Positions 1 to 14,008 of a DNA stretch of 64,000 bases are shown in pieces (positions within the stretch are counted from its first letter, which is position 1; every line of letters starts with the position of its first letter). The notes beneath the pieces are model-generated. The model worked only from the letters and a program-made list of their open reading frames with translations, did no database searches and was not told where the DNA came from. The DNA is from Candidatus Dichloromethanomonas elyunquensis (lineage in GTDB: Bacteria; Bacillota; Desulfitobacteriia; Desulfitobacteriales; Syntrophobotulaceae), in contig LNDB01000001.1 of assembly GCA_001515265.1 (NCBI GenBank), positions 62,001 through 126,000 of the forward strand, in the 5' to 3' direction. The position numbers and the translations under genes were made by a program.

Positions 1-236
1 ATATTTACCGCATATTCCAAAAGAATATTGCTATATTGGACACTCAAAAGCCGGACCATGATAATTAAGGGCAGCATTACGGCAAACATCACCGTGGAAT
101 GATAATATCCCATTTGGCAGAAAAGCTGATCTTTAAAACTAATTGCGACTAAAATTACTATGGCTAACAAGCAGAAAGAAATTACCTGAGAGGTGAGGAT
201 ATACTTCTCCTGCTTGTTCTTGTCTTTATACAGCAT
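1..236 (-). CDS. AgrC-like sensor histidine kinase, N-terminal part only (cut by window start)
   Basis: The first 78 codons are visible and the frame runs off the left edge. The ATG at 236 is preceded by GAGGG about 10 nt upstream. The visible part begins with a short basic segment (MLYKDKNKQEK), followed by two hydrophobic helices separated by a short loop. This resembles the minimal membrane part of Spo0B-type/AgrC-like peptide-sensing kinases of clostridia. No kinase motifs are inside the window, so the call rests mainly on its position directly downstream of agrB and agrD on the same strand, where the agrC gene normally lies. The receptor part appears small, with only two helices seen before the edge. 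It could instead be another small membrane protein. Confidence 0.55.
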   Translation of the reverse strand, partial: MLYKDKNKQEKYILTSQVISFCLLAIVILVAISFKDQLFCQMGYYHSTVMFAVMLPLIIMVRLLSVQYSNILLEYAVN

Positions 237-255
237 ATATATATGACCCTCACAA

Positions 256-288
256 AAGAATAAGGTGGGATAACCCCACCTTATTCTT
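256..288 (-). terminator. Hairpin terminator overlapping the end of agrD
   Basis: A perfect 14-bp inverted repeat (arms 256-269 and 275-288, loop ATAAC) overlaps the agrD stop codon. The left arm is A-rich, so the minus-strand RNA has several U residues at the base of the stem. It lies between agrD and the kinase-like gene and could attenuate read-through into the latter. Confidence 0.65.
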
Positions 289-409
289 ATTTTAGTAATG
301 ACTTCGGTGCTTTGGGCTGATATAGATAATAACCACAAGCAAAAACAGAACCGGCAGTAGCTAAGAGAACTAGCATTGAAGCAATTAGGGTGTAAAGCAT
401 TCTTTTCAT
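287..409 (-). CDS. agrD: Cyclic autoinducer peptide precursor AgrD
   Basis: A 40-residue precursor. It has an amphipathic/hydrophobic leader (MKRMLYTLIASMLVLLATAG) followed by the putative signal region CGYYLYQPKAPKSLLK. The single Cys at residue 25 would form the thiolactone after processing by AgrB. The Cys-x-x-x-x-YQP-x-x-PK pattern is typical of clostridial AgrD peptides. Its ATG overlaps the agrB stop as ATGA (409-406), so translation is coupled to agrB. The mature ring and tail cannot be fixed from sequence alone. Confidence 0.85.
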   Translation of the reverse strand: MKRMLYTLIASMLVLLATAGSVFACGYYLYQPKAPKSLLK

Positions 410-1002
410 GAATAATCCTCCTTCTTCTTTTTAATATTAAATACCGGCAGCAGGGTCAGAGTTTGATAACTAATCCCCAGGACTACACTGGTATTTATCA
501 GCACATTATTATTTAATAAAACTATAAAAAAAGAAAGAATAACAAAGCTTATAGAAATAAACTTCAAATTTCGTCTCAGTTTGGGTGAAATAATCGGTTT
601 AGATTCGCAATCGACTGGGGCTAAGTATGTAACAGTCATGAGACAAATTACCATGATAATTAACGAAATCTTAAAATCATAAAAGTGATATTTTACAATT
701 AATTGGGAGATGACCCCAAGGATGGAATAAATTATTGCACCAAAGGTAAGACATTTTAATGGAGTATTCATGTGAGCTCCACCAGATGTTTTTCGAAGTA
801 ACCCGCCGAAACCAGCAGCTATTACGGTAGGAATCAAGGCATTAAAGGAGAAAGCAACCAAAAGAATAGCCAAAAATCCAATGATAGACAGGAACAATGA
901 CTCCAAACCATAAGCCACAATTTCTCTTTTTTCATCGGTATAATTAAGCTCTCTGGTAATAGTATCTGACAAGTGCTGACTAATTTCCGAAAGGTTTATC
1001 AT
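406..1002 (-). CDS. agrB: AgrB-type membrane endopeptidase that processes AgrD
   Basis: A 198-residue membrane protein of usual AgrB length with about five hydrophobic helices. The central segment has the family signature: GLLRKTSGGAHM supplies the catalytic His, and the Cys is in APVDCESK. AgrB cleaves the C-terminal tail of AgrD and forms the thiolactone. A GGAAGGG ribosome-binding site precedes the ATG. The start overlaps the stop of the upstream membrane-protein gene (ATGA at 1002-999) and the stop overlaps the agrD start, so three genes are read as a coupled unit. Confidence 0.93.
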   Translation of the reverse strand: MINLSEISQHLSDTITRELNYTDEKREIVAYGLESLFLSIIGFLAILLVAFSFNALIPTVIAAGFGGLLRKTSGGAHMNTPLKCLTFGAIIYSILGVISQLIVKYHFYDFKISLIIMVICLMTVTYLAPVDCESKPIISPKLRRNLKFISISFVILSFFIVLLNNNVLINTSVVLGISYQTLTLLPVFNIKKKKEDYS

Positions 1003-1454
1003 TTTAAATCCCTTCCAACTCTTACTTTGTTAATGATATAGGCTAACATAAGAAGAACGATTACTTGCGGCCATGTTAATAAAATGCGAGTCAAAACATT
1101 AGTTGTCAGAGTTTCTATGGAAATATGAAATAAATACATAAACGATGATAAAAAAAATGTTTCCAAAAGAATTAATGCTAAGAAACCGACTAGGGAAGCC
1201 AACAATGAAGTACTAATTGGTTTCTTACAAAATTCTAGCAATATTATAAATTGGAGTCCAAGTAAAATAACAGTATGTACTCCAAATGTAATTGGTAATA
1301 ATCTCAATATATAAGCAATTAATGCAAAACCAGCACCTATAGAGACAACTTCTTTCCACCGTATCGGAACCTTCGCAATTACAAATATTAACGTAACCAC
1401 AGCTATTTGTTCTGGCACCCCCTGAAAAATTAAAGCCATAAATGGGATCCTCAT
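999..1454 (-). CDS. Small multi-pass membrane protein of the agr-like locus (paralogue 2)
   Basis: About 151 residues with about five predicted transmembrane helices and no soluble domain. I chose the ATG at 1454 over the upstream GTG at 1490 because GGGAGGG lies 4-5 nt before it and the resulting N-terminus (MRIPFMALIFQGVPEQ) aligns with that of its neighbour (MKIPILALIFQGIPEQ). Shared motifs with the neighbour are LIFQG-PEQ near the start and LRLLPITFG-HTV in the middle. The stop overlaps the agrB start. Function is not known to me. The architecture resembles a detached membrane sensor domain of clostridial peptide-sensing kinases, which is inference. Confidence 0.75.
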   Translation of the reverse strand: MRIPFMALIFQGVPEQIAVVTLIFVIAKVPIRWKEVVSIGAGFALIAYILRLLPITFGVHTVILLGLQFIILLEFCKKPISTSLLASLVGFLALILLETFFLSSFMYLFHISIETLTTNVLTRILLTWPQVIVLLMLAYIINKVRVGRDLK

Positions 1455-1504
1455 GTGCCCTCCCTTGATTACTTTGGTTATATTCGACACTCACTATTAT
1501 TTTC

Positions 1505-1951
1505 CTATTTTCTATTCTTAATTTTAAATATAACAAACGCTAAAAGAATAATAATAACCTCTTGAGGCAGACCAATAATAATTCTTGCTGTTGAATCTGT
1601 TGTTAAACTTTGTAAATCAACATTTAATAGAGGCATGAGGAGAGATAAACTTATTGTCTCCGCGATAATTAAACTTAAAAAACTGATTAGACTTGCTATA
1701 AGTGAGGAATTAATATTTCCCTTACCAATTACAATTAATAAAATGAAAAGTAAACTCATAATGAGAACAGTATGTATCCCAAACGTTATTGGCAGCAGCC
1801 TTAGTACATAAGCACTACATGCTACAATTGTGCCAATTAAAGCAATCCGTTTCCATACTAAAGGGATATTTGCTATAACAAAAGCTAACGCTGCAACAGC
1901 CATTTGCTCGGGTATTCCCTGAAAAATCAAAGCTAAGATTGGAATCTTCAT
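1505..1951 (-). CDS. Small multi-pass membrane protein of the agr-like locus (paralogue 1)
   Basis: A 148-residue, strongly hydrophobic protein that is clearly a tandem paralogue of the next gene downstream, with equal length and the same LIFQG-PEQ and LRLLPITFG-HTV motifs. It has a strong CGGAGG site before the ATG. It is the first gene of the agr-like unit on the minus strand. No enzyme motif is visible. It may take part in sensing or exporting the AgrD-derived peptide; this is inferred only from position and membrane topology. Confidence 0.75.
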   Translation of the reverse strand: MKIPILALIFQGIPEQMAVAALAFVIANIPLVWKRIALIGTIVACSAYVLRLLPITFGIHTVLIMSLLFILLIVIGKGNINSSLIASLISFLSLIIAETISLSLLMPLLNVDLQSLTTDSTARIIIGLPQEVIIILLAFVIFKIKNRK

Positions 1952-2056
1952 TTATTTCCTCCGTTGGAATATTTACCCTATTTTAATTCTACAAAAGATT
2001 AAATTATCCTTGTGAGAATACCAAAATAGTACTTTTGACCTATTATAATTAGGGAC

Positions 2057-3865
2057 TTATTGCTGTAAGCCCTTTTCCGTAGGAAATTTTATATAAAATA
2101 CTGTTCCGTCGGGACCTGTTTCGAATTCTAATTTTGCTCCGTGTCTCTGAACTATCCCGATGGAAATTGCGAGGCCCAAACCGGTGCCGGTTTCCTTGGT
2201 AGTGATAAAAGGCGTCCCCATTTTTTCCTGGACTTCCTGAGGGATTCCCCCGCCTTCATCTTCAATCGTGAGGACGACACAGTTTTCCTCCAGGTATGTG
2301 CTTACGGATACCTTCCCTCCTTCCGGGGTTGCTTCCAATCCGTTACGGACCAAATTTAAGATTAATTGTCTGATCTCCGACTCATTCAAATCCAGTTCGG
2401 GAATATCTCCCAGGTGAATCGTCACATCTTTGTCGTGATGAAGAGCATCCGCTTGCAGCATAGGGAAAATATGGGAAATAATTTCATTGACATTCTGACG
2501 TTTTATCGATTCCGCATTGACTTTAGCCAACGATAAGAAGTCTGTGATGATGGCATTGGCCCTGTCTATTTCCGAAATCATGATTTCCATATATTCCTTA
2601 TTTTTTTCTGAATAGGAACGTGATTCCAGCATCTGCAGAAAGCCTCTTACCGTTGTCATCGGGTTCCTGACCTCATGGCTGATTCCTGCCGCCATCTGTC
2701 CGATGAGATTTAACCTTTCCAGCCGAAGCAGTTCACCCTCCTGTTTCTTTGCTTCCGTGATATCCCTGATAAAAACGGACAGCCCCTGGGCAAAGGGGTA
2801 AGCATGAATTTCGTAGTACCTCCCTCCCGGTTCCTGCTGTGTCTCCCAATGCATCGAAATATCTTCGCTTACTGCCCGCTTCAAATTATCCATCGTTTCA
2901 CAATTGATAAACTCGGAAAATTCTTCCCGGATATCTTTGCCGAGTAAATATTCATGAGGTTTTCCGGTTATCTTTTTTGCTTCTTCGTTGATAAAAGTAA
3001 AATACCAGTTCCTGTCCAGGGACAAAAATCCGTCAGATATGCCTTCCATAATGGTTAAAAGCTTATTATGGGATTCTTCCAATTCTGTAGTAAGTTTTTT
3101 TAACGAATCCAAATGACTCCGGATTCTGTCATAAACAGGTTTTAATTCCGGTAATTTCTCCAGTTCTTTTTGGTTTTGGGGTTCGTCCTTGACGACCATC
3201 TCTGTAAACGTATCCAGAGATTCTTGGATCTGGGCAATATTCTTTTTAATTAATAGAAGGACAATAATCCAAAGGAGTATGCTTGGAATAAAAACCTTGC
3301 TATAGTTCAGGTAAGAGGTGTAAAAAATTTCTCCCGAATCAATCATCGCCAAGGTATATCCCATAACCTGGTCTTTATAAACGACAGGGACCGAAACTCC
3401 GATGACCCCTTTGCCGTCCCAATCAACTACTTCGGAATTGGAAATAAAGACCGGTGCCCGTGATTCCAAGATCTTTGATTTCTTTTCTTCCTTTAAAATA
3501 ATTTTTGAGGGGTCCTGAACATTGGGTGAAAATGCCAGCATAGAATTGAGATAAAAATCAAAGTACCCTAAAACCATCCTTGGATTTCCTTGGGACAACT
3601 TATTCAGAAAAGTCTGAAGTCCGGTCTTGACCAGTTCCCTTTTCTCTCCGTCACTTAGTCTTTGGTCGGCTTCAGAGAGGGGCAAAGTTTGTTCAACCTG
3701 ATGTTCCACCGCACCGGCAATGGATAATAACTCCAACTGCCTGTTAGTAACTTCCTTTTCCCAATAAATTCTCGCAACAAAGAAATAGAGCATAACCAGT
3801 ATAGAAAAAATAAGAACCGTTATTTTTAGCATGGTGGACTGGACAACGGAATGCCTTGTTCCCAT
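2057..3865 (-). CDS. Membrane-bound PAS sensor histidine kinase (sporulation-kinase-like)
   Basis: 602 residues. An N-terminal helix and a second helix near residue 200 bracket an extracytoplasmic sensor of about 160 residues. A PAS domain follows (about 270-380), then HisKA with GQMAAGISHEVRNP, where H397 is the phospho-acceptor, and an HATPase domain with N box LILNLVRNGLEATPEGG and G boxes DEGGGIP and GTGLGLAIS. This layout is that of KinB/orphan kinases feeding the Spo0F-Spo0A relay. No response regulator gene is adjacent, while a Spo0F-like gene lies about 4 kb away, so coupling to it is an inference. A good RBS (GAGAGGAG) precedes the ATG. Two Spo0A-box-like sites lie just upstream. Confidence 0.9.
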   Translation of the reverse strand: MGTRHSVVQSTMLKITVLIFSILVMLYFFVARIYWEKEVTNRQLELLSIAGAVEHQVEQTLPLSEADQRLSDGEKRELVKTGLQTFLNKLSQGNPRMVLGYFDFYLNSMLAFSPNVQDPSKIILKEEKKSKILESRAPVFISNSEVVDWDGKGVIGVSVPVVYKDQVMGYTLAMIDSGEIFYTSYLNYSKVFIPSILLWIIVLLLIKKNIAQIQESLDTFTEMVVKDEPQNQKELEKLPELKPVYDRIRSHLDSLKKLTTELEESHNKLLTIMEGISDGFLSLDRNWYFTFINEEAKKITGKPHEYLLGKDIREEFSEFINCETMDNLKRAVSEDISMHWETQQEPGGRYYEIHAYPFAQGLSVFIRDITEAKKQEGELLRLERLNLIGQMAAGISHEVRNPMTTVRGFLQMLESRSYSEKNKEYMEIMISEIDRANAIITDFLSLAKVNAESIKRQNVNEIISHIFPMLQADALHHDKDVTIHLGDIPELDLNESEIRQLILNLVRNGLEATPEGGKVSVSTYLEENCVVLTIEDEGGGIPQEVQEKMGTPFITTKETGTGLGLAISIGIVQRHGAKLEFETGPDGTVFYIKFPTEKGLQQ

Positions 3866-3957
3866 GGATTACTCCTCTCTCGTTTTCACAGGAATATAGC
3901 CAGGAATCTTAGGTATTCTTATTTTAAATAAAATTTTACAAAAAAGGAAGAACTAAG

Positions 3958-4009
3958 TTGTCGAAATAAAACATAAAAATCATGATATTTACATAAAATC
4001 TTTCGACAA
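3958..4009. promoter_or_regulatory. Pair of inverted Spo0A-box-like sites in a divergent promoter region
   Basis: TTGTCGAAA at 3958-3966 and its exact reverse complement TTTCGACAA at 4001-4009 face each other across 34 bp of AT-rich DNA. Both contain the TGTCGAA core of Spo0A boxes. They lie between the divergently transcribed sensor kinase (start 3865) and lipoprotein (start 4102), so either gene could be controlled. Binding is inferred from the motif only. Confidence 0.5.
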
Positions 4010-4101
4010 TAGCGAAAATATTGATAAAGTTTTTGATGAGGTATTGTAAATAGAAATTTTACAAATAATATCAACAAAACTAACAGCAAGGAAGATGAAA
4101 T

Positions 4102-4932
4102 ATGAATACTTGGTTTTTGAGTCCAAAAAAACAACAGGTTATTTTCATCGGAGCGATGATCCTAGTTTTGATTTTTTTGCCGGGCTGCAGCATGCTGAAG
4201 AAAATAACCGGACAGCAGCCCAAGCAAGAATCGCAGAGTCAACAAGAAGAACCGAAGCAATTAATGCAGATAGAGACTATCCTCGATAAAATATTTACGG
4301 ATTTAGGAGGACCTGCCTTGGAATCTGAAAAAGTTCAAGGACAAGGACAGGAAGACCAGCCGGGTCAAAACCAGCAGAATAAGCAAAGCGCGTCTGTTCA
4401 AGATCCATGGCAGCAAGTCTCCCAAGAGATTAAAAGCTTACATCTCAGTTGGAATGAAATTATGCCGGAAGCCGCTAAGAAAGGTGCCAAGAAAGACTTA
4501 ATCGATAATTTCAGCAACACGCTGAATAATTTAACAAAAACAGCGGACACCAAAGATAAAGACAAGGTACTCCTTTCGGCAAACAGCCTTTATCAATATA
4601 TCCCCGAACTTTATTCCCTTTACCAAACGAAGACCTCTCCCGAACTGAAACGGGTAAACTATTATTCAAGAAATATTATCTTGAACGCGAAAACAGGCAA
4701 TTGGGATAAGGTATCATCCGATACCGAGAAATTAAAATCTTTGTGGTCACTGATAAAAAATACAGCCGGGAAAGACCAGCAGGAAGACTCTGCAAAGCTG
4801 GACCTTTCAATATATGAACTTGAAAAAGTAGTTCAAGAGAGAAACAAAGAACTGATAGATATTAAGGGAAAGATTATTCAAACCAATCTTCAGTCGCTGC
4901 TGAAATCCATGGAAAAATCAGGCGGCCAATAG
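4102..4932 (+). CDS. Predicted lipoprotein of unknown function
   Basis: 276 residues with a basic N-terminus, a hydrophobic segment and a lipobox LPGC near residue 29, so it is likely lipid-anchored on the outer face of the membrane. A low-complexity Gln/Glu/Lys-rich linker follows (about 35-110), then a helical C-terminal region rich in Lys, Leu and Asn with no family I recognise. It is divergent from the sensor kinase and convergent with mnmA, from which it is separated by about 20 bp. The Spo0A-like boxes upstream suggest, but do not prove, growth-phase or sporulation control. Confidence 0.75.
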   Translation: MNTWFLSPKKQQVIFIGAMILVLIFLPGCSMLKKITGQQPKQESQSQQEEPKQLMQIETILDKIFTDLGGPALESEKVQGQGQEDQPGQNQQNKQSASVQDPWQQVSQEIKSLHLSWNEIMPEAAKKGAKKDLIDNFSNTLNNLTKTADTKDKDKVLLSANSLYQYIPELYSLYQTKTSPELKRVNYYSRNIILNAKTGNWDKVSSDTEKLKSLWSLIKNTAGKDQQEDSAKLDLSIYELEKVVQERNKELIDIKGKIIQTNLQSLLKSMEKSGGQ

Positions 4933-4951
4933 ATCAATAATGATTCAGCCA

Positions 4952-6028
4952 TTATTTCTCGGAAGAACAAATTGTGGCCCCTCCCACTACAATATCTTCC
5001 CGGTAAAATACGACTGCCTGTCCCGGAGTAATGGCCCGGACCGGTTCGTCAAATCTAACCTTAACCTTTTTATCGTCCAAGACATACATTTGAGCGGGAA
5101 CCTTGGGGCCGTTATATCGGATTTTGGCTGTTACACGCGAGGGTGAAGGCGGAAGCTCCCCCGAAGTAAAACTATAATTCTCCGCTGTCAGTGTCGAACG
5201 ATAGAGTTCTTCTTTTGCTCCAACCTGAACGGTATTATTGGACGGATCTATTGCGGTCACATAAACGGGATGACCCAGCGCAAGCCCCAGTCCTTTATGC
5301 TGTCCCACTGTGTAACGGTAAATTCCGAGATGTCTGCCAATCTTTTTCCCCTGAGCGTCAATAAAATCCCCGGGTGATGCGGAAATGTTGCGGTAACTTT
5401 CTACAAAATCAGCATATGAGCCTTCGACAAAGCAGATTTCCTGACTTTCCGGCTTTTCTGCGACCACCAATCCTTTTTCTTTGGCCAGCACCCGTATCTC
5501 AGCTTTTCGGCAGTCTCCCAAGGGAAAAAGGGTATGTTTCAATTGGGCCTGCGTCATAGGGTAAAGGGCGTAACTCTGATCTTTGGTGAAGTCCAAGCCT
5601 GTTTTTAATACGTACTTCCCCGAGGCTTGATCAAATTCCCGACGGACATAATGCCCGGTAGCAATATAATCAGCACGCAAGGCCTGCGCTTTTTTCAGCA
5701 GCAAATCAAATTTAATAAATCTGTTGCAGGAAATACAGGGATTAGGTGTCCTTCCGCCTAAATATTCATCACAAAATTCCCGAATGACTTTTTCCTCAAA
5801 TTCTTTGCGAAAATTCATGACATAATGGGGAATTCCTATTTTCCAGGCAACTCTCTGCGCGTCACTTACCGCTTCAAGGCTGCAGCAGGCTTTGGCCTGA
5901 TCTTCTTGCTGCGGCCATATTTGCATGGTTACCCCGATGACCTGATAACCGGCCTCTTTCAGCAGTAAGGCCGCGACAGAGCTGTCCACACCGCCGCTCA
6001 TCGCAACTATGACAGTTTTATTCATCAT
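4952..6028 (-). CDS. mnmA: tRNA-uridine 2-sulfurtransferase MnmA
   Basis: 358 residues, the normal length. The N-terminal PP-loop MSGGVDSS binds ATP. The catalytic cysteines lie in NPCISCNRFIKF and in ESQEICFVEG. The C-terminal beta-barrel contains GQHKGLG. MnmA thiolates U34 of Lys, Glu and Gln tRNAs, using sulfur delivered by a cysteine desulfurase. No cysteine desulfurase gene is adjacent here. The first two codons are both ATG and either could start. Confidence 0.96.
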   Translation of the reverse strand: MMNKTVIVAMSGGVDSSVAALLLKEAGYQVIGVTMQIWPQQEDQAKACCSLEAVSDAQRVAWKIGIPHYVMNFRKEFEEKVIREFCDEYLGGRTPNPCISCNRFIKFDLLLKKAQALRADYIATGHYVRREFDQASGKYVLKTGLDFTKDQSYALYPMTQAQLKHTLFPLGDCRKAEIRVLAKEKGLVVAEKPESQEICFVEGSYADFVESYRNISASPGDFIDAQGKKIGRHLGIYRYTVGQHKGLGLALGHPVYVTAIDPSNNTVQVGAKEELYRSTLTAENYSFTSGELPPSPSRVTAKIRYNGPKVPAQMYVLDDKKVKVRFDEPVRAITPGQAVVFYREDIVVGGATICSSEK

Positions 6029-6117
6029 TTTCCCTCATGTTAATTTCTTCATCTGATTTGAAAATATTTTATCCTTAATGCTTGCATAACGCAATGCAGA
6101 ATTTTGCAAAGGCTAGC

Positions 6118-7515
6118 TTAGGACTTCGGCATATGGGCCAGACGTACTCCGGTGATGTCCGCTATAAAGGGATCAATGGCGATGAGATCATCTTTGCCAA
6201 GATCATGAACTGCGGTTTTGCCCATAGCGCTCAAAGACATTCTTATCTCCGCAGTGCATGATTTAAGATAATTATATAAACTGTCCGCGCCCTTCTTGAC
6301 ATTAAACCGATGGGACAGTTGACTGACATTCCAAGCGACCGACGTCGGCGGTTCAAAAGGAAACGCCTTCAGGACCTGCGTATGAGCTACTGCGTAGAGA
6401 GCCGCTGTCCCGATGTATACTGCATTGGCCCCAAGGGCCAGCGCTTTTAAGAAATCCCCCGGGGTGATCAGTTTCCCATCTGTAATTAAATCGATTTCTT
6501 TTCTTGCCCCGCTTCTTTCCAAATAATTTACCGCTCTGCACAGACCAAATATTGCAGGAAGTCCATGATCATCCTGCAGTGTAGGCGGGGACCCTTTGGA
6601 GCCCCCTTCCGAGCCGCTTACCGTAACGAAATCCAGACCTGCTTCCAGACACCAAAATAGGTCCTTTTCCAGGCTGTCGCTGCCGGCAATCTTAGCCCCT
6701 ATAGGGATTCCTCCCCCGGTAATACCACGAAGTTCTCTTACCTTGTTCACCAGATCCCGAGGCTTATTTATCCCGGGAATCCTTGAAGGGTAGAGAATTC
6801 TTTCCCCTTTGCGCACCCCGTACATATTCCTCATTTCCCGGGAAATATTCTTTGCAGGAAGAATCTCGAAACTGCCTCCAAACGCCCCCTGCCCAAAATG
6901 AAGTTCGATCGCATCAGCCTGACGTAAGGTTTCGGGATCTTTACTCCAATGTCCCCGGTTATACTGGAGAATCAATTGTTTCGCGGCCTGACGTTCCTTG
7001 GGCAGCAGCCCTCCCTGCCCCGTATTGGCTGCCGTACCTGCCATCGAACATCCTTTGGCTATAGCAACCCTGACTCTCTCGCTTACCGCAAAGCCATAGG
7101 CCATCCCCCCGACCATAATAGGTGTCTCCAAAACGAGGGGTTTTTGCGCTTTTTTACCGATTATCACCGTTGTGTCAATATCTTCGTGTTGTGGAACAGG
7201 GAGTGTCTCAATCTGCGCAAAGGAAAACATCAGCCCATCTAATGAAGGCACTTTCTTTGGGCTCCCCAAGGGTCTTTCCACAGGCTCCCCTGTTTCGGAC
7301 CTTAAGTTCAGTTCTAAAATCTTCTGTGGTGTAACCCTTGAGGCCGCTGAAACCAGTTCCAATAGATTTTCGTTATACTCATCCGTCATGAGAATCCTGG
7401 TCCATTTTTTTATGATTCGTCCCGCCGCTTTTTTACCAAAGTACTTGAAAACAGTAATACCGCCTAGCAACATCGCTATCCTGCGCAGATAGTCGTACTT
7501 ATCTTTGTCAATCAT
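6118..7515 (-). CDS. FMN-binding glutamate-synthase-like protein (GltB central domain family)
   Basis: 465 residues. It consists of an N-terminal hydrophobic helix followed by a stand-alone FMN-binding alpha/beta barrel of the glutamate synthase type. Visible motifs are GGMAYGFAVSERVRVAIAKG, GQGGLLPKER, a flavin/phosphate segment TVSGSEGGSKGSP and GANAVYIGTAAL. The amidotransferase and GXGXG domains of true GltB are absent, as is usual for this subfamily. No small subunit is adjacent, so its real electron donor and substrate are open. It may not make glutamate at all. Confidence 0.85.
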   Translation of the reverse strand: MIDKDKYDYLRRIAMLLGGITVFKYFGKKAAGRIIKKWTRILMTDEYNENLLELVSAASRVTPQKILELNLRSETGEPVERPLGSPKKVPSLDGLMFSFAQIETLPVPQHEDIDTTVIIGKKAQKPLVLETPIMVGGMAYGFAVSERVRVAIAKGCSMAGTAANTGQGGLLPKERQAAKQLILQYNRGHWSKDPETLRQADAIELHFGQGAFGGSFEILPAKNISREMRNMYGVRKGERILYPSRIPGINKPRDLVNKVRELRGITGGGIPIGAKIAGSDSLEKDLFWCLEAGLDFVTVSGSEGGSKGSPPTLQDDHGLPAIFGLCRAVNYLERSGARKEIDLITDGKLITPGDFLKALALGANAVYIGTAALYAVAHTQVLKAFPFEPPTSVAWNVSQLSHRFNVKKGADSLYNYLKSCTAEIRMSLSAMGKTAVHDLGKDDLIAIDPFIADITGVRLAHMPKS

Positions 7516-7576
7516 ATACTTCCACCAATAAATTTAATATAAAAGAAAATTCTGCTTCCTTTTGGATTCTTGCGTA

Positions 7577-7753
7577 TTAAAGCTTGCTGCCGTTTTTTAA
7601 TTGCTGCTCTGCAAACTGGATCATTCTCTTGACCATATTTCCTGCTTCCCGGGAGGTAATATCCCCCGCATCCCCATCAACCCATTGAATACCCATCTGT
7701 TTTTCACCAGCTCCCGCTGCCTGAGACGGATCAATCGGTCTTAATTTCGCCAT
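7577..7753 (-). CDS. Short alpha/beta-type small acid-soluble spore protein-like protein
   Basis: 58 residues from the ATG at 7753, which has GAGGTG six bases upstream; the in-frame GTG further up overlaps that RBS. The C-terminal half (GDITSREAGNMVKRMIQFAE) matches the DNA-binding part of alpha/beta SASPs, which coat and protect spore DNA. It is shorter than usual: the stretch between REAG and MVKRM holds one residue where typical proteins have about five with a GG pair, and the N-terminal helix is replaced by a Gly/Ala-rich segment. Whether it still binds DNA is uncertain. Confidence 0.7.
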   Translation of the reverse strand: MAKLRPIDPSQAAGAGEKQMGIQWVDGDAGDITSREAGNMVKRMIQFAEQQLKNGSKL

Positions 7754-8050
7754 GATGTTCACCTCATTTACGTTTAATTCTATTAGTAATCTTTACTTTT
7801 TATTGAAATAAATACGCGCTAATTATTGGTTGTTCCCATGGCTTCTTATGGCATAATTTTATTTAAAGTATGAACTATTTTTTTCCTTAATATTTAGTTT
7901 TACCTTTTATTTTTAGAAATATAAAGAATATTTTGCATCCGGGAAGGAACCTGAAGTAAACACGTAGAATTACTAAGGTCACAAATATATTCCAAAAATC
8001 GTGGTAATCCAAATCTGAGAGGTTTTCTGAAACGGACCGGGAGGAAAGAG

Positions 8051-8443
8051 ATGAATAAACGTATTCTGATCGTTGATGATAACCGGGGAGTAAGATTTTT
8101 ACTCAGAGAGTTGCTAAGAACTGAAGGCTATGATGTAGTAGAAGCGGCAAATGGCCGGGAAGCTTTATACTATTCAACCCTATATGACTTCCCTTTGGTT
8201 TTGCTTGATGTCAAAATGCCCGGAATAACAGGTATCGATGTACTGCATAGACTAAAAGCACAAAACCCCGGACTCACGGTCATTCTCATGTCTGCATATT
8301 CCGAAATGGAGCTGCTCAATATGGCTTTGGAATATCATCCGAAGGTTCTTTTTCTCAGCAAGCCCTTTGACCTTGATAACGTCCGCGAACTCATCTTCAA
8401 TACGTTTCTCTTTCAGCAAAAGATGGAATTTCAGAATAGGTAG
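8051..8443 (+). CDS. spo0F: Single-domain response regulator, Spo0F-like
   Basis: 130 residues containing only a receiver domain. Acidic pocket D9/D10, phospho-acceptor D53 (LLDVKMPG), switch S81 and K104 (SKPFD) match the Spo0F layout closely. Without an output domain it should pass phosphate from sporulation kinases to Spo0B/Spo0A. GGGAGG precedes the ATG. It is followed after about 80 bp by pyc on the same strand. Other single-domain CheY-like regulators cannot be fully excluded, but length and residue spacing favour Spo0F. Confidence 0.8.
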   Translation: MNKRILIVDDNRGVRFLLRELLRTEGYDVVEAANGREALYYSTLYDFPLVLLDVKMPGITGIDVLHRLKAQNPGLTVILMSAYSEMELLNMALEYHPKVLFLSKPFDLDNVRELIFNTFLFQQKMEFQNR

Positions 8444-8524
8444 CTACTCATGATTTTCCTTTTTATAGGATACATTAGGTATGAACAACAAGGATCTTAA
8501 GTAAAGGAGAAACAAGAAGAAATT

Positions 8525-11500
8525 ATGAGTATAAAACCTTTTAATAAAATACTCGCCGCTAACAGGGGAGAAATCGCTATACGGATTTTTCGGGCCTGTA
8601 AAGAACTTGGGATCAGGACGGTCGCTATCTATTCGGAAGAAGATAAATACGCCTTATTCCGGACTAGAGCGGACGAATCTTATTTGATCGGAAAAAAGAA
8701 AAAACCGATAGAAGTCTACCTCAGTATGGATGAAATTATTGATTTGGCCTTAAAAAAAGGCGTAGATGCCATTCATCCGGGGTATGGGTTTCTGTCTGAA
8801 AACCCGGAATTTGCAAAGAAATGCCTGGAAGCGGGTATCGCGTTCATCGGACCTTCCCCCCATACTTTGGAAAACCTGGGAGATAAAATTAAATCCAAAT
8901 TGCTTGCCCACAACGTAGGCGTACCCACCATACCCGGAGTAGATAAACCCATGTCCTCTGTGGTCGAAGCTACGGAATTCACCAATATTTACGGGTTCCC
9001 TGTCATCCTGAAAGCTGCTGCGGGCGGAGGCGGCAGGGGGATGAGGGTCGTGTACAGTGAAAAAGATTTGGAGAGGGAATATCATAACGCCAAAAATGAA
9101 TCACGCAAGGCTTTCGGCATTGACGATATCTTTATAGAAAAATATCTGGAAAAACCTAAGCATATCGAAGTTCAGGTCCTCGCCGATAAGTACGGCAACC
9201 TGGTTCATCTTTATGAGAGGGATTGTTCCGTTCAAAGAAGGCATCAGAAAATCGTGGAATACACGCCGGCTTTTGCTATCCCGCGTGACTTGAGAGAAAA
9301 ATTGCACCAGGATGCGCTAAAGCTTTCCAGAGCCGTAAATTATGTGAATGCCGGCACTGCGGAATTCCTGGTGGACAAAAGCGGAAATCACTACTTTATT
9401 GAGATGAACCCCAGGATACAGGTGGAACATACCATTACGGAAATGACAACAGGCATAGATATTGTCCAGAGTCAGATTCTGATCGCCCAGGGCTATTCCT
9501 TAGACTCTCCGGAAATTGGCATTCCTTCGCAGGATGCGATTGAACCGCGGGGGTATTCCATTCAGTGCCGTATTACCACGGAAGACCCCCTGTCCAATTT
9601 TATGCCGGATACAGGGAAAATTGACATTTACCGGACAAGCTCCGGATTCGGTATTCGCTTGGATGGAGGAAACGGCTATACGGGTTCCACGATCTCACCC
9701 TATTATGACAGTCTTCTGGTTAAAATCATTTCCTGGTCGAGAACTTTTGAAAACGCGACTCAAAAAGCGATCCGGTCCATTAAAGAAATGAATGTTAAAG
9801 GGGTTAAGACCAACGAGGCTTTCCTCATTAATGTCCTTAATCATGAGACATTCCTGAGCGGGGAATGCGATACGCACTTCATCGATGATACCCCCGAACT
9901 GTTCGATATTAAACCCAAGAAAGATTATGAAACAAAAATTCTCAAATACATCGGCGAAAAAGTAGTCAACGAAGTCAAAAACACGAAACGGGATTATAAC
10001 GTGGCGCCGGTCCCTAAAATCCAGGTCCCCGCTGAACGGACCGGCTTAAGAAAGCTCCTTCAGGAAAAAGGTCCGGAAGGCTTTGTCTCTTGGATTAAAG
10101 CCCAGGACAGACTCTTGCTTACCGATACCACTTTCAGGGATGCCCATCAATCCCTTCTGGCTACCAGGGTACGCACCAAGGATATGGTCAAGATCGCCGA
10201 AGCTGCATCTATTTTGGCGAAAGACCTGTTTTCCTTGGAGATGTGGGGCGGAGCCACCTTTGACGTTTCCTACCGGTTCTTGCGGGAATCTCCCTGGAGA
10301 AGGCTGCAGGGTTTAAGGCAGCTTATCCCCAATATTCCCTTCCAGATGCTCCTGCGCGGGTCCAATGCCGTTGGTTATACCAATTATCCCGATAACCTTA
10401 TCCGGTCCTTTATCCGGGAAGCGGCTGACCAAGGAATTGATATCTTTCGGATTTTTGACAGCCTGAATTGGCTTAAAGGAATGGAAGTTGCTTTTGACGA
10501 AGTCATGAAAACGGGCAAAGTAGCGGAGGTCTGTATTTGTTACACCGGCGATATTCTCGATGAAAGCCGGGATAAATATTCTCTTCAATATTATGTGCGC
10601 AAAGCCAAAGAAATCGAGCGAATGGGGGCGCATATCCTGGCTGTCAAAGATATGGCAGGCCTTTTAAAACCGTTCGCTGCTGCTAAATTGATAGGAGCCC
10701 TCAAACAGGAAATATCCATTCCGATTCATCTGCATACCCATGATACGAGCGGAAACGGTCTTGCCACTTTGCTCATGGCGGCAGAGGAAGGCGTAGATAT
10801 TGTGGATACCGCCATCAACCCGATGGCAGGGCTGACCAGTCAGCCTGCCCTGAATTCGGTCATTGCAGCCCTGGAAAACACAGCCTTCGATACCAAAATG
10901 AACCTGGAAGACATTCAGAAAATCTGCGATTACTGGAGAGAAACCAGGACTGTCTATGAACCTTTTGAATCCGGACTGAAATCGGGAACAGCTGAAATCT
11001 ACAAATATGAAATTCCAGGGGGACAGTATTCCAATCTCAAACCCCAGGTTGAAAGTTTTGGGCTTGGGCACAAGTTTACAGAAGTCAAAGAGATGTACAA
11101 AGAGGTTAATGAACTGTTGGGAGACATCGTTAAGGTAACCCCCACTTCTAAAGTGGTCGGAGACTTCGCCATTTTTATGGTTCAAAATGATTTAACCAGG
11201 GAAAACATTTTAGAAAAAGGAAAAAACCTTTCTTTCCCGGATTCAGTTGTTGACTATTTCAAAGGAATGATAGGGCAGCCTGAAGGAGGTTTCCCGCCTG
11301 AACTTCAAAAACTGGTACTCAAGGGACAAGAGCCATTTACCTGCAGGCCCGGAGAAATACTGAATCCTGTCGATTTTGACGCTATTAAGAAAACACTCAA
11401 AGATGAATTTAACGTTAATGCCAATATGCGGAATGCTTTAAGTTATGCGTTATATCCCAAAGTTTACAGCGACTATCTCAAATCCTTAAATGAATATGGG

Positions 11501-11962
11501 CCCCTTTATAATTTAGAAAGCCATGTCTTCTTCTACGGATTAAAAGAAGGAGAGACCAGTGAGATTGATTTAGACGAGGGAAAAATTATGATCGTCAAAC
11601 TGGTGGAGGTCGGCGAAGTTGACGAAGAAGGGTATAAAACCGTTGTCTTTGAAGTCAACGGCAATAGAAGAGAAATCAAGATCGTTGACCGGAATTTTGA
11701 AGAAAAAGAGAAAGTCGATATTACTCAGATGGCAGACCCTGAAAATCCCAAGGAGATAGGTTCTTCAATTACGGGTACCGTCAGCAAAATCTTGATGAAA
11801 GAAGGGGACGCTGTTACCCATAAACAAAGTTTAGTTATTATCGAGGCCATGAAAATGGAGACGAACGTTCTCGCCCCTTCCGATGGAGAAATAGAAAAGA
11901 TTTTCATTACCGAAGGCCAGCCGGTTAAATCCGGACAGCTTTTGATGAAACTCAGGCAGTAA
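8525..11962 (+). CDS. pyc: Pyruvate carboxylase
   Basis: 1145 residues, full length for the single-chain enzyme. It contains biotin carboxylase (about 1-450; GGGGRGMRVV ATP loop, RRHQKIVE), the carboxyltransferase barrel (about 530-1000; DTTFRDAHQSLLATR) and a C-terminal biotinyl domain with EAMKMET carrying the biotinylated Lys. It converts pyruvate, bicarbonate and ATP to oxaloacetate, feeding the TCA reactions and gluconeogenesis. It works alongside ppdK found later in the window. It ends just before a strong terminator. Confidence 0.97.
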   Translation: MSIKPFNKILAANRGEIAIRIFRACKELGIRTVAIYSEEDKYALFRTRADESYLIGKKKKPIEVYLSMDEIIDLALKKGVDAIHPGYGFLSENPEFAKKCLEAGIAFIGPSPHTLENLGDKIKSKLLAHNVGVPTIPGVDKPMSSVVEATEFTNIYGFPVILKAAAGGGGRGMRVVYSEKDLEREYHNAKNESRKAFGIDDIFIEKYLEKPKHIEVQVLADKYGNLVHLYERDCSVQRRHQKIVEYTPAFAIPRDLREKLHQDALKLSRAVNYVNAGTAEFLVDKSGNHYFIEMNPRIQVEHTITEMTTGIDIVQSQILIAQGYSLDSPEIGIPSQDAIEPRGYSIQCRITTEDPLSNFMPDTGKIDIYRTSSGFGIRLDGGNGYTGSTISPYYDSLLVKIISWSRTFENATQKAIRSIKEMNVKGVKTNEAFLINVLNHETFLSGECDTHFIDDTPELFDIKPKKDYETKILKYIGEKVVNEVKNTKRDYNVAPVPKIQVPAERTGLRKLLQEKGPEGFVSWIKAQDRLLLTDTTFRDAHQSLLATRVRTKDMVKIAEAASILAKDLFSLEMWGGATFDVSYRFLRESPWRRLQGLRQLIPNIPFQMLLRGSNAVGYTNYPDNLIRSFIREAADQGIDIFRIFDSLNWLKGMEVAFDEVMKTGKVAEVCICYTGDILDESRDKYSLQYYVRKAKEIERMGAHILAVKDMAGLLKPFAAAKLIGALKQEISIPIHLHTHDTSGNGLATLLMAAEEGVDIVDTAINPMAGLTSQPALNSVIAALENTAFDTKMNLEDIQKICDYWRETRTVYEPFESGLKSGTAEIYKYEIPGGQYSNLKPQVESFGLGHKFTEVKEMYKEVNELLGDIVKVTPTSKVVGDFAIFMVQNDLTRENILEKGKNLSFPDSVVDYFKGMIGQPEGGFPPELQKLVLKGQEPFTCRPGEILNPVDFDAIKKTLKDEFNVNANMRNALSYALYPKVYSDYLKSLNEYGPLYNLESHVFFYGLKEGETSEIDLDEGKIMIVKLVEVGEVDEEGYKTVVFEVNGNRREIKIVDRNFEEKEKVDITQMADPENPKEIGSSITGTVSKILMKEGDAVTHKQSLVIIEAMKMETNVLAPSDGEIEKIFITEGQPVKSGQLLMKLRQ

Positions 11963-11973
11963 GGTATCTTAAC

Positions 11974-12006
11974 AAGGGGACGCAGCAGTTTGGCTGCGTC
12001 CCCTTT
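11974..12006. terminator. Strong hairpin terminator between convergent genes
   Basis: Arms AAGGGGACGCAGC and GCTGCGTCCCCTT form a near-perfect GC-rich stem followed by a short T-rich tail (TTTATT). It sits just after pyc and just before the end of the convergent small gene, so it probably serves both. Confidence 0.85.
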
Positions 12007-12011
12007 ATTGA

Positions 12012-12179
12012 TTAATTCTCAGTTTTTTCTTCGGTAACAGTTTTCTTTTGATCGTCCAGTTCCGTATAGATAAAAAGCAAGATGATGATGATAAGCGCTA
12101 ATTCGTATACGACGACCCACTCCGTCAGTTTGCATGAATTGCATTGACATTCTTTTTTATCTAAACTGCATTCGCTCAT
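12012..12179 (-). CDS. Small cysteine-rich single-pass membrane protein
   Basis: 55 residues from the ATG at 12179, which has AGAGGG about 8 nt upstream. A longer reading from 12239 lacks an RBS. The N-terminus holds four cysteines (CSLDKKECQCNSC), followed by one transmembrane helix rich in Ile/Leu and a charged C-terminal tail. The Cys cluster could bind a metal or form disulfides. No family is recognised. Confidence 0.55.
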   Translation of the reverse strand: MSECSLDKKECQCNSCKLTEWVVVYELALIIIILLFIYTELDDQKKTVTEEKTEN

Positions 12180-12259
12180 GATAAATCCCTCTTTCAGATT
12201 TTTTATATTCCAGTGTATTCCAAAAGAAGGGATGTGCACATTGTCCGAATGTATTATAA

Positions 12260-14008
12260 TTATCTGAGCGTTTTCAGAAAAACAGCAACCAGATAGGGGT
12301 CAAATTGGATATCTGAAAACTTGTTTAACTCTGAAATGATGTCTGAATAACTCATTGCCTTGCGGTAAGGACGATCATTACTCATACTGTCATAGGCATC
12401 CGCAATAGCAAGAATCCGGCATTCCAGGGGAATCTCTTTTCCGGCAATTCCCAAAGGATAGCCCTTGCCGTTCCACCATTCATGATGTTTTAGAATCAGA
12501 TCGGAAATATGTGCAAGATCAGGGGAAGAATTCGCGATTCTAAATCCTATTTCACTGTGTTTTTTCATTTCTTCATATTCATCAGGCTCCAGTTTCCCGG
12601 GTTTAAATAGGATTGCATCCGGAATTCCTACTTTTCCAATATCATGAAAACGGGCAAAAAGACTAAGCCTGCTTTTCTCCAGTTCACTCATTCCAACCAG
12701 AATCGCTAAATCTTCAACAATTTTTTGGAGCCTGTCGGTATGACCTTCAGTGATATAATCCCTTGCTTCCAGCGTCTTCATGAGAAGATCAACTGTTTTA
12801 CTTCTCGTACTTTGAGCATGCAAAAGTTTATAAAAATACATTTTTTCTTCGGCTTCTTTAAATACTCGGGTAAAGGTTATTTGATCAAGGGTGCCGCAGT
12901 ATGCCCAGCCCATAGAGATACTTAAAGGGATGGAATTTTGAAGATGGTTGTATTCCTCCACTTCTTGGCTGATGGAGTGGCAAATCCGGGAAACTTTTTC
13001 CTGATCGGTCTCTTTCAGGAGGACCGCAAACTCATCCCCTCCGACCCGTGCTATAATGCTTCCCTGCAAACAGGACCTGCGGAGAATTTCAGCGCAGGCA
13101 ATCAGATATTTATCCCCTTCCTGATGCCCCAGAGTATCGTTAATAAGTTTTAACCCGTCCACATCGCAAACAATAATGCCATTTGTTTTGAATTCCTGTA
13201 CTTTTTCCATAATGATCTGTTCAAAAAACCTGCGGTTGTATAAACCTGTAAGGGTATCGTGTTCTGCATAAAACCGGAGTTGTTCTTCGGTCAAGTACTG
13301 CTCGGTAATATCCCGGATTACTCCCAATATTTTCTTAGGCTGATTCTGTCCGTCTTTCTCCAGAACAGCAACCGAGTGGATAATCCGTTCTCCCCCGTCT
13401 TGCTCCCTGTTAATTCTAAATACAACATCATATTTCTCCTCATTCTGAATAAGGTTTGCTAATGCCAAATCCAAGTATGGCCTATCCTCACGGTTCACCA
13501 CGGCCTGCGCTTTATCCAGGGGCAGAATGGAATCCCCCCCTGTTATTCCGTAAATCCGGAACGCCTCGGCGGAAGCCCATATCTTTTTCCCGTGCAAATC
13601 CAATTCCCAGTTCCCAACGTGGGCTAAAGCCTGGGCACGATTCAACCGGTCTTCATTTATTTTCAGTTGAAAAAGATACGTCTTCAATTCTTCATATTGG
13701 CTTTGAATCTCCTCATTGGTTGCTTCAAGCTCTTCATGCGCTGCGATTAAATCTTGGTTGTTCTGGATAATTTTCATTTCGGCCGTCTGTACCGTTTTTA
13801 GCAATTTCCTGAGAAAAAGATAAAGCATCAGTCCGGTTAAAATAACATAAAACCATCCTTTATATGTACTGAAGATTCGAAAACTTTCTTTATCCATAGA
13901 GAAAGAATCTGCAAATGTATCGGAAAATAAAATCCATATCACACCAAGCGCCAAATAAACCAAACTGATTTTCACCGCTTGATGCTTATATTTATTTTTG
14001 TCCTTCAA
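12260..14008 (-). CDS. Membrane PAS-GGDEF-HD-GYP protein (c-di-GMP synthesis/degradation)
   Basis: 582 residues. Two N-terminal transmembrane helices, a coiled coil (about 75-115), a PAS domain (about 125-235), a GGDEF domain with intact VGGDEFAVLL, and an HD-GYP domain with HDIGKVGIP, HHEWWNGKGYP and LAIADAYDSM. Both output motifs look intact, so the protein could make and hydrolyse c-di-GMP, or one domain could regulate the other. The sensory input is probably the membrane/PAS part. It stands alone, convergent with pyc. Confidence 0.92.
   Translation of the reverse strand: MKDKNKYKHQAVKISLVYLALGVIWILFSDTFADSFSMDKESFRIFSTYKGWFYVILTGLMLYLFLRKLLKTVQTAEMKIIQNNQDLIAAHEELEATNEEIQSQYEELKTYLFQLKINEDRLNRAQALAHVGNWELDLHGKKIWASAEAFRIYGITGGDSILPLDKAQAVVNREDRPYLDLALANLIQNEEKYDVVFRINREQDGGERIIHSVAVLEKDGQNQPKKILGVIRDITEQYLTEEQLRFYAEHDTLTGLYNRRFFEQIIMEKVQEFKTNGIIVCDVDGLKLINDTLGHQEGDKYLIACAEILRRSCLQGSIIARVGGDEFAVLLKETDQEKVSRICHSISQEVEEYNHLQNSIPLSISMGWAYCGTLDQITFTRVFKEAEEKMYFYKLLHAQSTRSKTVDLLMKTLEARDYITEGHTDRLQKIVEDLAILVGMSELEKSRLSLFARFHDIGKVGIPDAILFKPGKLEPDEYEEMKKHSEIGFRIANSSPDLAHISDLILKHHEWWNGKGYPLGIAGKEIPLECRILAIADAYDSMSNDRPYRKAMSYSDIISELNKFSDIQFDPYLVAVFLKTLR

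Follow-up and report, generated by a model that had tools for sequence, protein, structure and literature searches.

What might two small membrane proteins be doing directly ahead of agrB and agrD, at a locus with no AgrC, that is, without a polytopic sensor joined to a kinase of the GHKL/HPK10 type? The locus lies at the left edge of the window, by which we mean the whole 64,000-nucleotide stretch of Candidatus Dichloromethanomonas elyunquensis DNA that was analyzed, and on the minus strand it reads, in order, a PAS-HisKA-HATPase kinase gene, the genes of the small proteins SMP1 and SMP2, agrB, agrD and a TM6-GGDEF-HD-GYP gene (Table 1). AgrB has its catalytic His/Cys pair and an AgrD precursor adjoins it, as in an agr locus; no AgrA LytTR response regulator was seen among the ORFs read in positions 1-14000 of the extended contig (L002) or 1-6000 of the window. 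The initial annotation had recognized agrB, agrD, the two multi-pass proteins before agrB and the ATGA overlaps that chain the SMP2 stop to the agrB start and agrB to agrD, and all of these were found again; the kinase gene just upstream had been missed. The ATG chosen for SMP2 is preceded by a strong ribosome-binding site (GGGAGG), and an alternative GTG at 1490 would give 163 aa. The hairpin that lies between agrD and the gene of the c-di-GMP enzyme (-23 kcal/mol, z=-4.55; terminator-like call on the plus strand only) is possibly a partial terminator or a stabilizer of the mRNA 3' end. Chance is excluded as the source of the locus arrangement, because it is conserved across dozens of clostridial genera.

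Table 1. Features of the agr-type locus; positions refer to the window except where L002, the extended contig, is given.
Feature	Position	Strand	Description
TM6-GGDEF-HD-GYP gene, first 78 residues	1..236	-	start codon at 236; runs past window edge
TM6-GGDEF-HD-GYP gene, full	L002 10623-12236		537 aa (extended contig)
Hairpin, 14 bp	256..288	-	between agrD and c-di-GMP gene; strong fold
agrD	287..409	-	40-aa precursor, TIGR04223 E=3e-10; adjoins agrB
agrB	406..1002	-	peptide-processing protease/exporter, PF04647 E=5e-38; catalytic pair H77/C84 present
SMP2	999..1454	-	SMP1 paralogue, 49% identity, 151 aa from ATG 1454
SMP1	1505..1951	-	148 aa, free-standing, five TM helices; homologue of the AgrC-type sensor domain
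PAS-HisKA-HATPase sensor kinase	2057..3865	-	602 aa; directly upstream of SMP1, same orientation

The gene at the left edge had been read as a kinase whose N-terminus has only two helices. On the extended contig its product has about six TM helices followed by GGDEF (E=3e-41) and HD-GYP (E=1e-42) domains and no kinase domain, which rules out a kinase; only two helices were apparent because the gene is cut by the window border. The argument that had been drawn from this N-terminus for a receptor split between the kinase and the small proteins was therefore wrong, since the gene encodes no kinase and its membrane domain has all six helices, but the idea itself is well supported by two other, comparative observations set out below, namely that the SMPs carry an AgrC-type sensor domain and that adjacent two-gene kinases occur elsewhere. 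A full 6-TM AgrC receptor at this gene had been named as counting against the idea. Six helices are indeed present, but this domain, TM6, shows weak similarity to DUF4118 and to 6TM_PilS (for the latter, 4/20 members, best E=5e-7) and is not an AgrC receptor, so the objection does not apply; a common fold or family with the SMPs was ruled out (hhalign 0.5%). A structure model of TM6 had no significant match among solved structures. The active-site motifs of the c-di-GMP enzyme are intact (GGEEF, HDIGK, HHHENYDGSGYP) and no RxxD inhibitory site was seen in the protein, which is predicted to be a c-di-GMP synthase/hydrolase; because both domains look active, the direction of the c-di-GMP change cannot be read from sequence. 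At another locus (L037:5896-7420, minus strand) the protein is divided over two frames, TM6 in one of 109 aa and GGDEF-HD-GYP in one of 394 aa, either by a frameshift or as a natural split. Beyond the c-di-GMP gene of the present locus, a haemolysin-III/YqfA-like membrane gene, recognized by eye (L002:9920-10572, minus strand), looks frameshift-split in two.

SMP1 and SMP2 belong to one 5-TM family. No Pfam or NCBIfam model matches either, and relatives among solved structures were found neither by sequence nor by fold; the AlphaFold2 model of SMP1 (pLDDT 92.7) has five long helices. Their affinity became evident from larger proteins: eight matches fell in reading frames of 450-485 aa, and all five that were read out are kinases headed by an SMP. 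SMP residues 1-145 align with the N-termini of AgrC-like kinases of 450-476 aa, most of which lie beside agrB, at 99.75% in hhalign (E=3e-27, 145 columns), the kinase side being built from six such N-termini. The membrane residues P14, E15, R51, G58, H60 and E98 are conserved in both the stand-alone and the fused forms. In one SMP-headed kinase the cytoplasmic portion matches both NF046015, the AgrC model (E=2.6e-20), and the kinase module of S. aureus AgrC (6e52, E=1.3e-9); the fused proteins match NF046015 from model position 44-49 on, and the SMP alone has no NCBIfam match. By these alignments, the SMPs are end-to-end homologues of the membrane sensor domain of AgrC-like kinases. Tandem duplications are frequent, and by the SMP tree loci with two or three copies came about more than once; the paralogues may form heteromers or differ in peptide preference. 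One locus (L132:6037-10544) has SMP genes before agrB-agrD, two intact and one apparently broken, and one more directly before a HisKA kinase. Elsewhere (L162-L165), kinase-less 7-TM SMP relatives whose cytoplasmic tail is short stand directly before agrD, with no agrB nearby; these are possibly truncated AgrC receptors.

Relatives of the SMPs occur in 72 of the 151 genomes searched and, in a phylum-wide profile search, in 109/299 genomes and 86/215 genera, with hosts that include Desulfosporosinus, Gracilibacter, Formimonas, Moorella and Romboutsia (36/341 genomes of the class of the last). Phages gave no match to the Romboutsia SMP as query. A relative of 31% identity on a 27-kb record labelled as a Klebsiella plasmid (NZ_CP061968.1, 13991-14425) probably reflects a contaminating clostridial contig. 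Co-occurrence with agrBD, which the initial annotation had proposed to test, is borne out: among near relatives, a same-strand agrB gene lies within 2.5 kb of 99 of 108 stand-alone SMPs, the SMP lying upstream in 95 of these, so the family does not occur mostly apart from agr genes. Several of the nine without a nearby agrB sit close to contig ends. SMP and agrB genes overlap in 43/70 pairs. The reverse link is looser, with an SMP-type domain near 79 of 114 AgrB matches and none near the other 35. In three cases (L119, L123, L130) an SMP adjoins a TM6-kinase gene with no agrB nearby, and the SMP therefore tracks the output protein as well as agrB. A clostridial genome also appears to carry agrB and agrD in a single 269-aa frame, an AgrB-AgrD fusion, beside an SMP and TM6-GGDEF-HD-GYP (L153:2971-3780). 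At agrB1D1 loci with the peptide core NSTCPWII, which we take to be of the C. difficile AgrD1 type, no SMP lies within about 1.5 kb, and by adjacency the SMP is thus ruled out as the missing receptor for that peptide. The receptor of C. difficile AgrD1 is stated to be unknown (PMC10602386).

The domain is found in four arrangements: fused to an AgrC-like kinase, cut off between TM5 and TM6 and adjoined by a separate kinase gene, beside 6TM-GGDEF-HD-GYP proteins, and beside HisKA kinases. In a census of 102 non-duplicate loci that were read, a HisKA kinase stands beside the SMP in 32, a GGDEF-HD-GYP protein in 26 and both in 9, and SMP-kinase fusions account for 5. A separate SPOB-HATPase kinase gene is present in 19 (one also with a HisKA kinase), and the SMP gene usually overlaps it or lies within 60 bp. 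No output gene was seen in 11 loci; 10 of these are cut by a contig end, and L047 holds a fragment of an orthologous kinase. The separate SPOB kinases start with two TM helices and one of them spans AgrC model positions 139-397 of 414, and the cut therefore lies between TM5 and TM6. A fragment of S. aureus AgrC with nearly this extent, 134-430, is active as a kinase in liposomes (PMC3841183). Fused forms are scattered among split ones in the SMP tree, where the fused L067 pairs with the split L140 (support 100/95). In eight split-kinase loci (L116, L120, L122, L129, L131, L136, L137, L139) AgrD often has Ser at the expected ring Cys, as in PASVLLWHQPEVP, which suggests lactone rather than thiolactone peptides.

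The TM6 domain is likewise tied to the SMPs. All 35 GGDEF-HD-GYP proteins that lie within 3.2 kb of an SMP carry TM6, versus 0/2 of those farther off. Since the GGDEF-HD-GYP set also supplied the TM6 profile, this count is partly circular, and independent weight attaches only to the results on kinases and across genomes. TM6 also heads 10 HisKA kinases beside SMPs, and across 299 genomes 37 of 44 strong TM6 matches fall within 3.2 kb of an SMP.

Taking into consideration the homology, the gene order, the integrity of the motifs, the recurrent splitting of kinases at TM5/TM6 and the co-occurrence of SMP and TM6, we propose, with a probability of about 0.62, that the SMPs are detached AgrC-type peptide-receptor subunits that act on interchangeable membrane output proteins in agr-type cyclic-peptide quorum sensing. 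AgrB would trim and cyclize AgrD, the product probably being a thiolactone of five residues around CGYYL; this core (C-G-Y-Y-L, ahead of YQP) is predicted by analogy and was compared with the cores of relatives, which are variable, as in the known agr specificity groups. The exported peptide would then be sensed in the membrane by SMP1 and SMP2, which correspond to helices one to five of an AgrC-like kinase, and its occupancy would be passed to the output protein through helix-helix contact in the membrane. With TM6-GGDEF-HD-GYP as the output at this locus, c-di-GMP would be shifted up or down with cell density, and the adjacent PAS-HisKA kinase is probably a further output. Peptide and SMP do covary, inseparably from AgrB: the partial Mantel correlation is r=0.31 (p=0.0015) given kinase divergence and r=0.05, not significant, given AgrB. 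In S. aureus a peptide effect was reported on AgrC TM5-6 itself (PMC3841183), so TM1-5 may not be the sole peptide contact.

Some of the same observations could be read otherwise. The frequent overlap of SMP with agrB, their nearly constant proximity and a peptide covariation that cannot be told apart from that of AgrB would all suit accessory subunits of AgrB, that is, chaperones or exporters for AgrD processing or secretion with no role as receptors. We consider this unlikely, given that AgrC-like kinases carry the SMP domain as their sensor end, that split loci couple the SMP to a kinase gene instead, that SMP-TM6-kinase pairs occur without agrB, and that close to a third of the AgrB matches (35/114), as well as the C. 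difficile-type agrB1D1 loci, do without a nearby SMP-type domain. It is harder to see the SMPs as kinase-less decoys or immunity proteins that sequester the peptide and tune a receptor encoded elsewhere. The kinase-less 7-TM relatives beside orphan agrD genes and the frequent tandem duplications would agree with such a role, which we nevertheless hold to be quite improbable: the repeated physical linkage of SMPs with particular output proteins, together with the natural split kinases, points to a signaling subunit, and the genome itself, which is 82% complete, has no fused SMP-kinase that could serve as the true receptor.

A third possibility keeps the SMPs as peptide sensors but lets them signal only via the PAS-HisKA kinase, the c-di-GMP gene being a co-transcribed target or a bystander. 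Every Desulfitobacteriales agr locus examined keeps the sensor region of this kinase, either upstream or downstream; in Desulfosporosinus the SMPs and the PAS kinase occur with no TM6 protein beside them, and a hairpin stands between agrD and the c-di-GMP gene. As the Desulfosporosinus loci lack TM6, that domain is not always needed and signaling there must proceed differently. A kinase-only output is nonetheless doubtful, because in many genera outside Desulfitobacteriales SMP and TM6-GGDEF-HD-GYP occur together with no kinase of this type, and the tie between TM6 and SMP holds genome-wide. We retain the detached receptor acting on exchangeable outputs as the preferred reading.

Set against known systems, the locus resembles staphylococcal agr (AgrBDCA) in its AgrB protease with H77/C84, its AgrD-type precursor and its AgrC-like sensor domain in the membrane; it differs in that the sensor domain is free-standing and duplicated, neither an AgrC fusion nor AgrA being present, and in its outputs, which here would be c-di-GMP turnover and probably a PAS-HisKA kinase. 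In DSF signaling by RpfC/RpfG, a cell-density signal feeds an HD-GYP c-di-GMP phosphodiesterase, as proposed here, but the signal is a fatty acid, the phosphorelay leads to a soluble regulator, the hosts are Gram-negative and the receptor is unrelated. PilS (6TM_PilS, PF25323) offers a parallel within the membrane: its 6-TM input domain is weakly similar to TM6, and according to the title of a study cited in PMC6058289 it senses pilin by direct intramembrane contact. Unlike the present case, the partner there is pilin, the output is a kinase only and there is no quorum peptide.

The literature search returned no description of stand-alone AgrC-type sensor proteins and, outside the main comparative agr survey of Wuster and Babu (2008), in which prior mention is possible, no description of an agr-GGDEF-HD-GYP operon. 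What comes closest in print is the agr operon of C. perfringens (CPE1563-CPE1562-agrB-agrD), in which two upstream genes of unknown function are co-transcribed with agrBD and complementation needed the four-gene clone (PMC2706048). The likeness is one of operon layout, two unexplained genes before agrBD, and the receptor reported for C. perfringens is VirS (PMC10602386).

Whether the arrangement amounts to a large unrecognized class of peptide signaling in clostridia, in which a detached 5-TM receptor gates exchangeable 6-TM outputs (c-di-GMP enzymes or kinases) and a direct pathway leads from cyclic peptide to c-di-GMP, is in our judgment evenly balanced. The two domain families named here, SMP and TM6, which no existing model covers, provide a handle for finding such circuits, and in the split loci a sensor kinase is found naturally divided between two genes. 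If the proposal is true, agrBD loci without agrC would gain candidate receptors, clostridia would have a route from quorum to c-di-GMP that bypasses a response regulator, and agr signaling would be modular, its peptide receptor a portable membrane subunit that is plugged into kinases or c-di-GMP enzymes.
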